Program-made: the position numbers and the translations under genes
Shown: in pieces, positions 26,089 to 32,672 of the stretch
Layout of the letters: every line of letters starts with the position of its first letter
Position numbering within the stretch: position 1 is the first letter of the stretch
Assembly: GCA_023818745.1 (NCBI GenBank)
Contig: JAMWBY010000003.1
Location: forward strand, 1-32,672
Origin: Candidatus Omnitrophota bacterium
GTDB taxonomy: Bacteria > Ratteibacteria > UBA8468 > B48-G9 > JAFGKM01
DNA: 32,672 nucleotides
Reading direction: 5' to 3'
The notes under the pieces: model-generated
What the model was told of the DNA's origin: nothing
The model's database searches: none
Seen by the model: only the letters and a program-made list of their open reading frames with translations

Positions 26089-27027
26089 ATGGCTAAATTC
26101 AGTCCTAAAAAATTTATAAAAGAAAGTGTTAATGAGTTAAGAAAAAAAATAAAAGACAAAAGGGCTTTAGTTGCAACTTCTGGTGGAGTTGATAGTACTG
26201 TTTGTGCTATTCTATCAAAAATGGCGATTGGCGATAAATTAGTTGTTTTTTTTATTGATGATGGTTTAATGAGAGAAAAAGAACCAGAACAAGTCAGAGA
26301 TTTTTTAGCAACAAAAGGAATAAACTTGGAAATCTGGAATGTTGAAGATACATTTTTTGAAGCATTGAAAGGCAAAACTGACCCTGAAGAAAAAAGGAAG
26401 GCATTCAGAGACACGTTTTATAAAATATTGAGTCAAGCAGTAAGAAGTTATTCTGTAGATTTTTTAATTCAAGGAACTATAGCAGCAGATATCGTTGAAA
26501 CCCAAAAAGGCATAAAGACACAACACAATGTTCTTTCTCAAATTGGAGTGAATCCTGCTTTTTATGGTTTAACAATAATTGAACCATTAAGAGAACTTTA
26601 CAAAAATCAGGTAAGACAGGTTGCTAAGGTACTTGGATTACCTAAAAAAATATATGATAGAAAGCCATTTCCTGGTCCTGGATTAGCAACGAGAGTTATA
26701 GGAGAAGTAACAAGGGACAGGGTGGAGAAAATAAGGATTGCTACAAAAATAGTAGAAGAAGAACTTATAGAAAAAAATATTTTTCAAGCATTCCCAGTAT
26801 TATTTTCAGATAAAGCAACAGGTATAGTTGATGGTAAAAGATTGTTAGGAGATATAATTGCAATTAGAGCTGTTAAATCTGAAGATGCTTTAACTGCTCA
26901 ACCAGTAAAAATTTTGTGGAAAAGATTATACAAAATAAGAGATAGGATTTTAAAAGAAGTTCCTGGTGTTGTGAAAGTTTTATATGATATAACTCCTAAA
27001 CCACCGAGTACAATTGAATATATTTAG
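26089..27027 (+). CDS. GMP synthase-type PP-loop ATPase subunit (no fused glutaminase domain)
   Basis: 312 aa; SD gggagg upstream; ALVATSGGVDSTVCAIL P-loop; FLIQGTIAADIVETQKGIKTQHNV; KPFPGPGLATRVIGEVT; C-terminal KPPSTIEYI. Starts directly at the PP-ATPase domain. Confidence 0.85.
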   Translation: MAKFSPKKFIKESVNELRKKIKDKRALVATSGGVDSTVCAILSKMAIGDKLVVFFIDDGLMREKEPEQVRDFLATKGINLEIWNVEDTFFEALKGKTDPEEKRKAFRDTFYKILSQAVRSYSVDFLIQGTIAADIVETQKGIKTQHNVLSQIGVNPAFYGLTIIEPLRELYKNQVRQVAKVLGLPKKIYDRKPFPGPGLATRVIGEVTRDRVEKIRIATKIVEEELIEKNIFQAFPVLFSDKATGIVDGKRLLGDIIAIRAVKSEDALTAQPVKILWKRLYKIRDRILKEVPGVVKVLYDITPKPPSTIEYI

Positions 27028-27058: not shown

Positions 27059-27667
27059 GTGATTGGAATTATAAAGTATGGTAGTGGAAATATATATAGT
27101 GTTTTTTCTACACTTAAATTTTTGGGGAAAGAAGTAGTTTTAGTTGAAAATCCGAAAATATTAGATAAGTTAAATTTTTTGATTCTTCCTGGTGTCGGAA
27201 ATTTTGCTTCAAGTATGGAAAATTTAGAAAAGGGGGGTCTTTTAGAGAAAATAAGATACAAATTAAAAGATGGAATTCCATTTCTTGGTATCTGTTTAGG
27301 ACTTCAACTTTTGTTTGAGTGGAGCGAAGAAGGGGAAAGAGAAGGTTTTGGAATTTTAAAAGGGAAAGTGGTAAAATTTAAAGATAAAAATATAAAGATA
27401 CCTCATATGGGATGGAATAAAGTGAAAATTTTAAAAGAAAGTTTCCTTTTTAAAGATATTAGGGATAATTCATATTTTTATTTTGCACATTCTTATTATG
27501 TAAATACGCAAAAAGAACTTATCATAGGGAAAACAAATTATGGAATTGATTTTCCTTCTGTTATTGTTAAAAAAAATATAGTTGGTGTTCAATTTCATCC
27601 AGAGAAAAGTGGTGAACTTGGATTATTGTTTTTAAAAAATTTTCTGGAGGGAAAATGGTTACAGTGA
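27059..27667 (+). CDS. hisH: Imidazole glycerol phosphate synthase glutaminase subunit HisH (GTG start)
   Basis: 202 aa; [34 protein letters not shown] nucleophile elbow, [23 protein letters not shown]. Confidence 0.93.
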
Positions 27668-28419
27668 GAATTATACCATGTCTTGATGTAAAAGATGGAA
27701 AAGTTGTAAAAGGTATTCATTTTGAAAATATTAAAGTTGCAGGAGACCCTGTAGAAAATGCTTCTTTTTATTGTAAAGAAGGAGCAGATGAGATTGTTTT
27801 TCTTGACATTAGTGCAACTATAGAAGGTAGAAAAACAATGGTAGATATTGTAAGAAAAGTTGCAGATGTTGTTTTTATACCTTTTACAGTGGGTGGAGGT
27901 ATTTCCTCTTTAAATGATATAGATAAATTATTATCAAATGGTGCGGATAAAATTTCAATTAATACTGCTGCTGTAAAAAATCCCAAACTGATTGAAGAAT
28001 CAGCAAAAAAATTTGGAAGTCAATGTATAGTAGTTGCAATAGATGCTAAAAAAATAGGAAATAATAAATGGGAAGTTTTTATTGAAGGAGGGAAGACACC
28101 GACAGGATTAGATGTTATAGATTGGGCAAAGAAAACAGTAGATTTAGGAGCAGGCGAAATTTTATTAACAAGTATTGATAGAGACGGGACACAGGATGGA
28201 TACGATATTGAATTGACAAAAACTGTAAGTGAAAGTGTTAAAATTCCTGTTATTGCTTCTGGTGGAGCAGGAAAACTTGAACATCTATATGAAGCAATTG
28301 TCAATGGTAAAGCAAACGCAGTTTTAATTGCATCTCTTTTACATTTTAGAATTTTAACAATTCCTCAAATAAAAAAATATCTCAAATCAAAAGGAATTGA
28401 AGTAAGAGAAATTAAATGA
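27655..28419 (+). CDS. hisF: Imidazole glycerol phosphate synthase cyclase subunit HisF
   Basis: 254 aa; [73 protein letters not shown]. Confidence 0.97.
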
Positions 28420-28425
28420 GGCAAT

Positions 28426-29415
28426 ATGGATAATTTTTTGATAACAGGTGGTTGTGGATTTATTGGTTCGTATTTAGCAGAAGAACTTGTAAAACAAAAT
28501 AAAAAAGTTTTTGTTATTGATGACCTTTCGACAGGGAGTTTAAAAAATCTGTCAAATATTATAAATCATAAAAATCTTAACATTTTTATAGATACAATCT
28601 TAAATCAACATTTAATTGAACAACTTATAAAAAAAGTTGATTTTGTATTTCATCTTGCAGCAGTTGTTGGAGTAAAAAAAGTTATGGAAAGCCCTATTGA
28701 CTCTATCATTGTAAATATTGAAGGAACTAAAAATATATTAAAATTCTGTGCCAAACACAGAAAAAAAGTTTTAATTACTTCAACATCTGAAGTTTATGGA
28801 AAGAATGTAAATGTTCCTTTTTCTGAATCTGCAGATATAGTTATTGGTTCAACAAAGAAGAAAAGATGGTCTTATGCCTGTACTAAAGCAATTGATGAGT
28901 TTTTATCTTTTGCTTTTTATGAAGAATATGGATTATCTGTAATAATTGTTAGATTGTTTAATACAGTAGGGGCAAGGCAGACGGAAAGATATGGAATGGT
29001 AATTCCAAGGTTTACAAAACAAGCACTTTCAGGCAATCCCATAACTATTTTTGGTAATGGAGAGCAAACAAGATGTTTTATACATGTAAAAGATGTAATT
29101 TCAACTTTACTAAAATTGATTGATAAAGATGAAAGTTACGGAGATATTTTTAACATTGGGAGTGATGAAGAAATTAAGATAAAAGATCTGGCTTTTCTTA
29201 TTAAAGAAATTACAAAAAGTAATTCAGAAATTAAATTTGTAGATCCAGAAGAGGTTTACAATAAAGGTTTTGAGGATATGGCGAGAAGAATTCCTGATTT
29301 AAGCAAATTAAGGAAAACAATTGATTTTCAACCATGTTATACGATAAAAGACATAATAATTGATGTAGTGGAATATTACAAAAAACAATCTGATTTATTA
29401 CCTTATTTTTGTTAA
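28426..29415 (+). CDS. NAD-dependent sugar-nucleotide epimerase/dehydratase (extended SDR)
   Basis: 329 aa; ITGGCGFIGSYLAEELV, HLAAVVGV, STSEVYG, YACTKAIDEFL (YxxxK), RLFNTVGARQTERYGMVIPRF. Confidence 0.93.
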   Translation: MDNFLITGGCGFIGSYLAEELVKQNKKVFVIDDLSTGSLKNLSNIINHKNLNIFIDTILNQHLIEQLIKKVDFVFHLAAVVGVKKVMESPIDSIIVNIEGTKNILKFCAKHRKKVLITSTSEVYGKNVNVPFSESADIVIGSTKKKRWSYACTKAIDEFLSFAFYEEYGLSVIIVRLFNTVGARQTERYGMVIPRFTKQALSGNPITIFGNGEQTRCFIHVKDVISTLLKLIDKDESYGDIFNIGSDEEIKIKDLAFLIKEITKSNSEIKFVDPEEVYNKGFEDMARRIPDLSKLRKTIDFQPCYTIKDIIIDVVEYYKKQSDLLPYFC

Positions 29416-29429
29416 ATGAATATCAACTA

Positions 29430-29455
29430 TTTAATCAATTGAGCAATTAGTTAAA
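29430..29455. promoter_or_regulatory. Operator-like palindrome, copy 1 (upstream of winged-helix gene)
   Basis: TTTAA-tc-AATTG-ag-CAATT-ag-TTAAA, symmetric about 29442/29443; nearly identical to copy 2 at 29782-29805. Confidence 0.7.
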
Positions 29456-29462
29456 TGTAAAA

Positions 29463-29777
29463 ATGAAAAGAAAAAAAATGCCAGAAAGGGAATATAGGGC
29501 GTCAAGGATATGTAGAGTTTTAGGAAATCCAACAGCATATCAGATAATGAAATTGCTTACATCCAAAGAAAAACTTTCTCCATCTGAAATGAGTAAAAAG
29601 CTTGGTCTTACAATTCCTAACGTTTCAAGAACCCTTAGAAATTTAAGACAAATAGATTTGGTAAGATATGAAACGAAAAATTATATCAAAAAATATTACA
29701 TTAAGGATGAAAGTGTTTTAGAAATTTTTAACAGTTTAGAAAATTATGTTGAAAAAATAAAAGAAAAAAAATTTTAA
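29463..29777 (+). CDS. ArsR-like winged-helix transcriptional regulator
   Basis: 104 aa; RICRVLGNPTAYQIMKLLTSKEKLSPSEMSKKLGLTIPNVSRTLRNLRQIDLVRYETKNYIKKYYIKD. Confidence 0.85.
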   Translation: MKRKKMPEREYRASRICRVLGNPTAYQIMKLLTSKEKLSPSEMSKKLGLTIPNVSRTLRNLRQIDLVRYETKNYIKKYYIKDESVLEIFNSLENYVEKIKEKKF

Positions 29778-29781
29778 TTAA

Positions 29782-29805
29782 TTAACCAATTGAGCAATTA
29801 ATTAA
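29782..29805. promoter_or_regulatory. Operator-like palindrome, copy 2 (abuts start codon of GT-C gene)
   Basis: TTAA-cc-AATTG-ag-CAATT-aa-TTAA, immediately followed by ATG at 29806; shares AATTGAGCAATT core and flanks with copy 1. Confidence 0.7.
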
Positions 29806-31374
29806 ATGATTAAGTGGAGAAAAAAAGAGAAGAAGGGAATAAAGGGGTTTGATAAGAGAAAAGCAGTATTATTAATATTGTTGTTGGCATTTCTCCTTAG
29901 AATAAGTTATTTGTTTTTTTTGAAAGACACTGTTTTTTTTAATCCTTATATTATGGATAAACATGACCAAAAAACATTTATTTTATGGGCAGAACAGATT
30001 TTAAAGCATCCTTTTTATGTTGATGGAAATGTTTTTTATATGGCTCCATTTTATCCTTATTTTCTTGCTTTTGTTCATTTAATTTCAAATGGTAATTTAT
30101 TTTTAATTTATATTGTACAAATTTTATTTGATGTCTTTTTATGCTATTTAATTTATCTTCTCGGGAAAATACTCTATGATGAAGCAACTGGAATTCTTGC
30201 AAGTTTTTTCTGTGCATTTTATAGGTCTTTTGTTATCTATTCATCTACTATTCTAAGTGACAATTTAATTATGTTTCTTTATATTTCTTTTATTACTTCT
30301 TTGTACGTTTTTCTTATGAGGAAAAGTTTGAAATGGTTGATAATTACAGGAATTTTGCTTGGTTTTTCTGCTCTTGCAAAACCAACTATTGGAATTTTTT
30401 TACCATTTTTATTTATCGGACTTTTAATTTATGATAAAAAAGATTGCTTATTAAATTTAAAATTTAAAATTGGATATCCTCAGGATAGAATTTTTACTTT
30501 TTTTTTCATTGTTTTTATTGCAGGAATTGTAATTTTACCGATTACTATAAGGAATTGGTATGTTGGAAGAGTTTTTGTTCCTATATGTTCAAATGGTCCT
30601 GAAAACTGGAGGATTGGTAATAGCGCTGATTCTATTGGTCTCTTTTACTATCCAACAGGTCCACTTCTTTCACCTTTATCATTGGATTTCTGGAAATTAT
30701 TTTTAAAAAAAATGTATCTATTTTTTACAAGTTATGAGTGGCCTCAGAATATGAATATTTATTTAATGGAACAGTTAATACCTTTGCTTAAAATTGCTTT
30801 TGTTAGATTTGGTTTAATAATCCCACTTGGTTTATTTGGATTAATTTTATTTTTTAAAAATTTTAGAAAAAATTTTTTATTTATAACATTTACTTTTTCA
30901 AATATTCTATGGGTTGTTTTATTTTTCATTGTTGATAGATACAGATTTCCTGCAGTCGCTTGTTTTTCTATATCTGCCGCATATCTTATTATATGGGCTT
31001 ATAAAGAAATATTTAAAAATAAAAAAATTTTGTATCCATTTTTAATGTTTTTTTTAATATTTATTTTTGCTTATATTTTTAATAGTGGCCCTTCTGAACT
31101 ATTGCCTCGTAAAAGTAAAGAAATTTTTGGGTATTTAAGTGCCAAAGGAATAGGAGAAGATTTGAGAGAGAAAAAAATAAAACAGGCATATAAAAAAGCA
31201 ACTGCATTTTTGAAAATTTTACCTGATGACCCAAAAAGTAATTTTCTGATGGCTCTTGTTTATTACGAGATGGGAGATAGAGAAAAAATGTTTTGGTATT
31301 TAGATAAAACTTTTAAACTTAATCCTGAATTTAAACCAGCAAAAGAATTTTTAGAAGATTTGAATAGAAAATGA
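29806..31374 (+). CDS. GT-C/PMT (ArnT-like, GT39-type) membrane protein with C-terminal TPR-like segment
   Basis: 522 aa; many TM helices; first loop DKHDQKTFILWAEQILKHPFYVDGNVFYMAPFYPYFLAFVH; C-terminal PDDPKSNFLMALVYYEMGDREKMFWYLDKTFKLNPEFKPAKEFLE. Confidence 0.82.
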   Translation: MIKWRKKEKKGIKGFDKRKAVLLILLLAFLLRISYLFFLKDTVFFNPYIMDKHDQKTFILWAEQILKHPFYVDGNVFYMAPFYPYFLAFVHLISNGNLFLIYIVQILFDVFLCYLIYLLGKILYDEATGILASFFCAFYRSFVIYSSTILSDNLIMFLYISFITSLYVFLMRKSLKWLIITGILLGFSALAKPTIGIFLPFLFIGLLIYDKKDCLLNLKFKIGYPQDRIFTFFFIVFIAGIVILPITIRNWYVGRVFVPICSNGPENWRIGNSADSIGLFYYPTGPLLSPLSLDFWKLFLKKMYLFFTSYEWPQNMNIYLMEQLIPLLKIAFVRFGLIIPLGLFGLILFFKNFRKNFLFITFTFSNILWVVLFFIVDRYRFPAVACFSISAAYLIIWAYKEIFKNKKILYPFLMFFLIFIFAYIFNSGPSELLPRKSKEIFGYLSAKGIGEDLREKKIKQAYKKATAFLKILPDDPKSNFLMALVYYEMGDREKMFWYLDKTFKLNPEFKPAKEFLEDLNRK

Positions 31375-32672
31375 TAATTTTAAAAAAAATTTTATTTTTA
31401 ATAATATTTTCCTTCTATTTCTGTTTTGGGAATATTAAAAATTTATCTATTGAAAAGCAAGAAAGAATTATTATATTTGCACCTCATCCTGATGATGAAA
31501 TTCTTGCCTGCGCAGGTTTAATTCAGAAAATTATAAAAAATCAAGGTGAAGTATATATTGTTTATCTTACAAATGGCGACCATAATCAATTACCTTATAG
31601 GATTTATGAAAAAAAGATTATTTTAAACCCAACCGATTATATAAAACTTGGAGAAATAAGAAGAAAAGAGTCAATAAAAGCAACAGGAATTTTGGGTATT
31701 CCTAAGGGAAATCTGATATTTTTAGGGTATCCTGATTTTGGGACATTGAAAATTTGGGAAAATTATTGGGGACAAAATAAACCATATAAAAGTTTTCTAA
31801 CAAAAGCAAGTTATGTTCCTTATAAAGAAAATTATTCTTTTGGAAGACCATATATAAGTGAGAGTATTTTAACCGATATTAAAGAATTACTTAAAGATAT
31901 AAAACCAACAAAAGTATTTACAACTTCTCCTTATGATACCAATGTTGACCATAGAGCACTTTATAATTTTATCAGAGTAGCAATTTTAGAACAAGAAATA
32001 AAACCAGAAATTTTTATTTATTTAATACATTTTAAAAATTATCCAGGTAAGTCAGAAAAATTAATTTTGCCTGATATTTTTTCTATTTTTGAAATTTATA
32101 ATATCTTTCTTGATGAAAAAGAAATAGAAAATAAAAAAGTTGCCTTGGAATGTTTTAAATCTCAAACAATATTTAAAAAAAACTGGTTTTCTTCTTTTGT
32201 TAAAAGTAATGAAATTTTTTATAAAGAAAATGATTTGAAATTAAAAAGTAATATAATTATGGAGAGTGAAAAAGAAGCAGAATATAATGAATATAGGAAT
32301 ATTTCTTTACCATTTTATGTAAACTTAAAAAATAAAGGAGAGTTTTTAGAAGTTGAGTTTATACATAAAAAGAAAACAATTCTGCCTACCTATTATGTTT
32401 TTTATTTATTTCCTTTTAAGAAACAAATTGAGTTTTCAAAAATGCCCAAAATAAAAATAAATTTAAAAAAAGAAAATGGAATTTTGACTTCTTTAAATTA
32501 TTTAACACCTACAAATCAACTTAAGTATGAAAAATCAAAAGATAAATTTAATTTCAAAATAAAATACGAGGATATAAATTATCCTGAGTACTTATTTTTC
32601 TCAGCAAATATAAAAATTGGTAATATAAATTATGATTTTATTCCTTGGGAGGTTATAAAGATTGAATATTAA
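31371..32672 (+). CDS. PIG-L (LmbE-like) family deacetylase with additional C-terminal domain
   Basis: 433 aa; signal peptide; IIIFAPHPDDEILACAGLIQKI; TSPYDTNVDHRALYNFIRVA; about 200 aa C-terminal extension; stop TAA is the last codon of the window. Confidence 0.9.
   Translation: MIILKKILFLIIFSFYFCFGNIKNLSIEKQERIIIFAPHPDDEILACAGLIQKIIKNQGEVYIVYLTNGDHNQLPYRIYEKKIILNPTDYIKLGEIRRKESIKATGILGIPKGNLIFLGYPDFGTLKIWENYWGQNKPYKSFLTKASYVPYKENYSFGRPYISESILTDIKELLKDIKPTKVFTTSPYDTNVDHRALYNFIRVAILEQEIKPEIFIYLIHFKNYPGKSEKLILPDIFSIFEIYNIFLDEKEIENKKVALECFKSQTIFKKNWFSSFVKSNEIFYKENDLKLKSNIIMESEKEAEYNEYRNISLPFYVNLKNKGEFLEVEFIHKKKTILPTYYVFYLFPFKKQIEFSKMPKIKINLKKENGILTSLNYLTPTNQLKYEKSKDKFNFKIKYEDINYPEYLFFSANIKIGNINYDFIPWEVIKIEY

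Follow-up and report, generated by a model that had tools for sequence, protein, structure and literature searches.

A 104-aa winged-helix protein of the ArsR/SmtB fold is encoded between two nearly identical inverted repeats in the 32,672-nt stretch of Candidatus Omnitrophota DNA analysed here (the window), and we consider it probable that the protein recognises both dyads as its operators, the first located at the start of its own gene and the second where the GT-C/PIG-L genes behind it begin. An initial annotation of this DNA had read the arrangement as a regulator controlling itself and the downstream genes through a two-fold symmetric site, and the comparative evidence, consisting of the ArsR-like fold, the 12-2-12 form of the dyad and a conservation that is linked to the regulator, supports that reading.

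Copy 1 of the dyad, TTTAATCAATTGAGCAATTAGTTAAA (29430..29455, + strand), lies 7 nt 5′ of the winged-helix start and is the proposed auto-operator, and copy 2, TTAACCAATTGAGCAATTAATTAA (29782..29805, + strand), is located 5 nt past the regulator stop, ends at the next ATG and is the proposed operator of the downstream genes. The coordinates and sequences first given for both copies proved exact, and the few differences said to separate them leave 22 of 24 positions identical. Both copies have the 12-2-12 inverted-repeat form, imperfect in copy 1, that has been described for operators of the ArsR/SmtB family (PMC8790569). The pattern used in the initial annotation is matched by both copies at 0 mismatches; at up to three mismatches, about 0.03 chance matches are expected in the window. 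Each copy had also been described as sharing a following ATG (TTAAATG). In copy 2 this ATG (29806) is the start codon of the GT-C gene; in copy 1 it hits an immediate stop and is not a start codon, the winged-helix start being located 8 nt beyond it. The reported lack of a Shine-Dalgarno sequence applies to both the winged-helix gene and the GT-C gene; of the remaining long ORFs in the window, roughly 40% have an SD-like stretch.

The assignment of the regulator (29463..29777, + strand) as an ArsR-like winged-helix protein is backed by Pfam, by a PDB profile search, by an AlphaFold model and by an ortholog in the sister genome G001. In Pfam the protein scores 40 bits against HTH_20 (cut-off 27) and 32.2 bits against HTH_5 (cut-off 22), and its PDB profile matches are SmtB, CadC, CmtR, CzrA, NolR and HlyU, with SmtB/CzrA as the best. 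The AlphaFold2 model has a mean pLDDT of 89.7, and fold comparison again returned SmtB/CzrA as the best PDB matches (TM-scores of 0.82-0.92), so that profile and fold both place the protein in the ArsR/SmtB superfamily. Because it contains no His and a single Cys, it possesses neither of the known metal sites, alpha3N and alpha5; the ArsR/SmtB ligands that were sought, the alpha3(N) Cys pair and the alpha5 Asp/His/Glu set, are absent from it, and its score against the NCBIfam metalloregulator model is 48.6 bits (cut-off 55). Metal sensing was rejected on account of the missing ligands. Judged from sequence and model, the protein has an ArsR-like fold and is not a classical metal sensor, and its ligand is probably something other than a metal bound in the classical ArsR positions.

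Upstream, at a distance of 47 nt, the regulator gene has an NAD-dependent epimerase/dehydratase gene as its fixed neighbour (28426..29415, + strand). The proposed target behind it encodes a GT-C type glycosyltransferase (PMT_2) with a TPR-like C-terminal part (29806..31374, + strand), whose end is overlapped by a PIG-L family deacetylase-like ORF (31371..32672, + strand) that reaches the contig edge and is proposed to be a co-transcribed target. Sequence inspection further upstream revealed a 312-aa GMP-synthase ATP-pyrophosphatase-like ORF (26089-27027), which is of the split form, its glutaminase part being absent, and behind it ORFs resembling hisH and hisF (27059-28419). In our model the regulator would dimerise on the dyad; when bound to copy 1 it would regulate itself, most likely by repression, and when bound to copy 2 it would control the GT-C/PIG-L genes behind it. 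The genes follow closely on the epimerase gene, the dyads stand at translation starts, and no promoter is recognisable near copy 1 or copy 2 in the window. The mechanism here might be either a polymerase roadblock inside the operon or occlusion of a promoter that departs from the consensus.

A scan of our collection identified 26 homologous loci, 25 of which came from WOR-3, Stahlbacteria and TA06, and each of five complete WOR-3 chromosomes carries 2-6 members of this wider family. We compared the flanks of the regulator genes in 41 rows representing 40 distinct loci (L139 repeats L079), mostly from WOR-3/Stahlbacteria. In 28 of these rows, a stretch upstream of the gene matched another one just past the regulator stop, typically at 18-24 of 24 positions (shuffled maxima of 15-21). 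Dyads of orthologs are alike across genomes, and those of paralogs of one genome are mostly unlike (13-17 of 20 positions, against a background of 13-14). Because the dyad sequence varies among the paralogs of a single genome, the dyad tracks the protein and not the genome. Likeness of dyads was correlated with likeness of proteins (Mantel r 0.57, p 0.0005), and r was 0.34 when the pairs were limited to those below 70% identity. Part of the agreement of dyads between genomes follows from common descent, which does not, however, account for the matching flanks of a single locus.

The dyads of the wider family are likewise few per genome and intergenic. The L149 dyad occurs in exactly two copies in its 2.8-Mb genome, both adjoining the L149 gene, and in four other genomes it has 0 copies. 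For the remaining dyad types, searches allowing up to three mismatches gave 1-7 sites in each genome, and some of these flank genes, hutH among them, on the promoter side. Two dyad sites, one 5′ of hutH and one 5′ of a carbohydrate-binding-like gene, are common to the related complete WOR-3 genomes G061 and G064 (G061:C1:880008 and G064:C1:956287, dyads L093 and L086; G061:C1:408713 and G064:C1:682346, dyads L167 and L169), and each of them persists even in the genome in which no cognate paralog was detected.

A promoter of the TTGACA/TATAAT type that ends 5-9 nt before the ATG was present in 21 of 37 homologs. In the WOR-3 homologs (L057-L081, L134-L152) it is strikingly uniform, consisting of TTGACA, about 17 nt, TATAAT, 5 to 9 nt and the ATG. 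Because so short a distance remains between promoter end and start codon, leaderless mRNAs are predicted for these 21 homologs. The suggestion of a leaderless promoter made for the window thus finds its counterpart in the promoter geometry of the WOR-3 homologs, but not in the window itself. In most of the 21 promoter-bearing homologs the dyad centre precedes the -35 hexamer by 0-21 bp, a placement seen only in the WOR-3 homologs and not in the window. Because a dimer at the -35 region is expected to hinder the polymerase, repression through a blocked -35 region is the natural reading for these homologs, and activation would be possible where the dyad stands wholly upstream of -35.

A downstream dyad copy would suit an operator of the neighbour gene if that gene is codirectional. 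Such a copy was found at 24 of 30 loci with a codirectional neighbour and at 4 of 10 with a convergent one (p = 0.04), but this link was lost after close orthologs had been collapsed (p = 0.30), and it can be used only as a hint. The four distinct loci with a copy ahead of a convergent gene are L061, L063, L062 and L152. Because the neighbour is convergent, the downstream copy cannot be its operator at these loci, and another role is needed; both sites together could, for instance, act on the gene of the regulator itself. Joint action of the bracketing pair, through a loop or a roadblock, would account for such copies.

The history of the locus can be followed in relatives of the window's genome (G000). 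In the sister genome G001, a 73% ortholog of the regulator is present, gene order is kept and both dyads are found, with copy 2 as TGAATCAATTGAACAATTGGTTAA at the corresponding place and copy 1 degenerate. Conservation in relatives that carry the regulator, which had been proposed as a check, is therefore seen in G001, and in WOR-3 it takes the form of paralog-specific sequences. The GT-C gene adjoins the epimerase gene throughout the family, and with the fixed epimerase neighbour as a reference for placing, we propose that the regulator gene was inserted into an older epimerase/GT-C gene pair. In G003 and G004 one dyad lies between these two genes, and the regulator was not found at this junction; both regulator and dyad are absent from the junction in G005, G007, G009, G010, G012 and G013. 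A regulator remnant in G003/G004 was discounted since the gap is too short and no trace was seen. The order of gain and loss could not be taken from the GT-C tree, in which only the grouping of G003 with G004 is resolved, and the HTH tree, the backbone of which lacks resolution, could not be used to name a donor. Elsewhere in the family and order, five genomes have a gene for a winged-helix protein of a different type (~165 aa) shortly 3′ of the GT-C gene (G007:C25, G008:C92, G010:C2, G012:C30 and G019:C28).

The strongest rival explanation, suggested by the loci of G003 and G004 with their single dyad, is a repeat-flanked mobile cassette, in which the dyad-gene-dyad unit is gained or lost through recombination at the dyads, which would then be recombination sites and possibly operators too. 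One and the same junction carries two dyads with the gene (G000, G001), a single dyad (G003, G004) or neither (G005 and the inspected family members), as such a cassette would predict, and a family profile, at a threshold of E <= 1e-12, detected the regulator in no more than 2 of the 35 genomes searched for the phylum, these MAGs being incomplete. This series, however, is observed at one position only, and loss of the gene between two direct-repeat operators would yield the same pattern. Moreover, the middle of the G004 dyad is CT and not AG, which argues against a simple join of two G000 copies; no recombinase or transposase domain was found in the 104-aa protein by a Pfam-type domain search; and the dyads of WOR-3 stand at promoters in a fixed geometry. 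We regard the cassette as unlikely.

Pattern searches of the genome carrying the window (1.26 Mb, 91% complete) with a looser pattern at 0-1 mismatch yielded four places: the two window copies, a dyad in the nadC-tatD gap (C48:8469) and one beyond the last ORF of contig C32, 5′ of a TTGACA/TATAAT-like stretch (C32:6154). The genome-wide scatter that the initial annotation had named as evidence against its reading is not seen, the four strong sites all being intergenic. Searches of 17 genomes (G012 left out) with the full consensus, TTTAACCAATTG-NN-CAATTGGTTAAA (12-2-12), at up to three mismatches returned matches confined to four genomes of the same genus, with 0 matches for the backward control in 17 of 17 genomes; because this control is not zero at looser settings, weak matches were not used. 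A consensus from 11 genus and family sites comes close to perfect symmetry, with 11 symmetric pairs out of 13 (8-10 in individual sites), and because these sites were partly picked by a symmetric pattern, its symmetry is supportive only. The nadC-tatD dyad is common to G000 and G003, and none was seen in G001, G004 and G005. A similar dyad occurs 5′ of a gene that is cas6-like by inspection in G003 (C24, 6298-6329; L113) and G012 (C56, 3077-3108; L115), two genomes from which the regulator is absent.

Orphan dyads at the nadC-tatD, cas6-like and C32 positions in several genomes would be expected if the repeat were a dispersed extragenic palindrome (REP- or MITE-like) that brackets the regulator by chance. 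The few copies per genome, with four strong sites in G000, and the private L149 dyad speak against it, as do the matched pairs of unlike sequence that flank many diverged paralogs. A dispersed repeat, for which many copies would be expected, was rejected as the main reading because of the low copy number and the private dyads, and we consider it improbable. An RNA-level element, in which the repeats would form terminators or hairpins where translation begins, is very improbable. Copy 2 does fold somewhat better than its shuffled versions (z -2.2) and ends at a start codon, but the A-U stems are very weak (-3.5 and -4.2 kcal/mol; z -0.6 for copy 1), no + strand terminator was found at the dyads in the window, and in WOR-3 the dyad upstream of the gene lies across or ahead of the -35 hexamer and is mostly untranscribed from that promoter.

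Several observations count against the operator reading: the orphan dyads (nadC-tatD in G003, cas6-like in G003 and G012, and the G061/G064 sites kept without a cognate paralog), the single-dyad junctions of G003 and G004, the missing window promoter and the downstream copies ahead of convergent genes. Where dyads occur without a regulator (G003, G004, G012, G061/G064), the gene may have been lost recently or lie on a missing contig, or another paralog may bind the site.

Taken by itself, the sequence of the window locus suggests an autoregulated ArsR-like module of a fairly normal kind. Across the wider family, every paralog would have a dyad sequence of its own at its gene, in most cases with another copy past the stop, and at most a few further sites in the genome. 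We tentatively suggest, at somewhat less than even confidence, that an expanded family of non-metal ArsR-like proteins in WOR-3/Stahlbacteria was transferred horizontally into the Omnitrophota-labelled genus, that each paralog has a private dyad on either side, with protein and DNA specificity diverging together, and that the two dyads may act jointly by a loop or a roadblock. No described family of this kind was found in the literature searched. If this picture is correct, dozens of natural pairs of a small winged-helix protein and a palindrome, with paralog-specific differences inside single genomes, would be available, the joint change of regulator and operator specificity could be tested directly by swapping recognition helices and sites, and a first handle on transcription control would exist in phyla that have no cultured members. 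The kind of gene switch is known; the family is uncharted and unusually clear, and the private bracketing dyads are the part worth following.

Among known systems, the window protein resembles SmtB, CzrA, CadC, CmtR, NolR and HlyU in its winged-helix fold, its length and an imperfect 12-2-12 inverted repeat close to where the regulated gene begins. Unlike the ArsR/SmtB repressors, it has no known metal site and remains below the NCBIfam metalloregulator cut-off, and its locus has a matched second site right past the regulator stop. Autoregulation without classical metal sites occurs in non-metal ArsR proteins, among them the SdpR-type autorepressors (NF033789), and the window protein is similar to them in lacking such sites and in its proposed autoregulation, but at 27.4 bits against a cut-off of 100 it is not a member of the SdpR type. 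In REP/RAYT systems a gene is flanked by its own cognate palindromes, and genes of the window type are likewise bracketed by palindromes whose sequence tracks the gene copy. In contrast to REP/RAYT, these loci carry no transposase domain, have few genomic sites, and their sites are tied to promoters.
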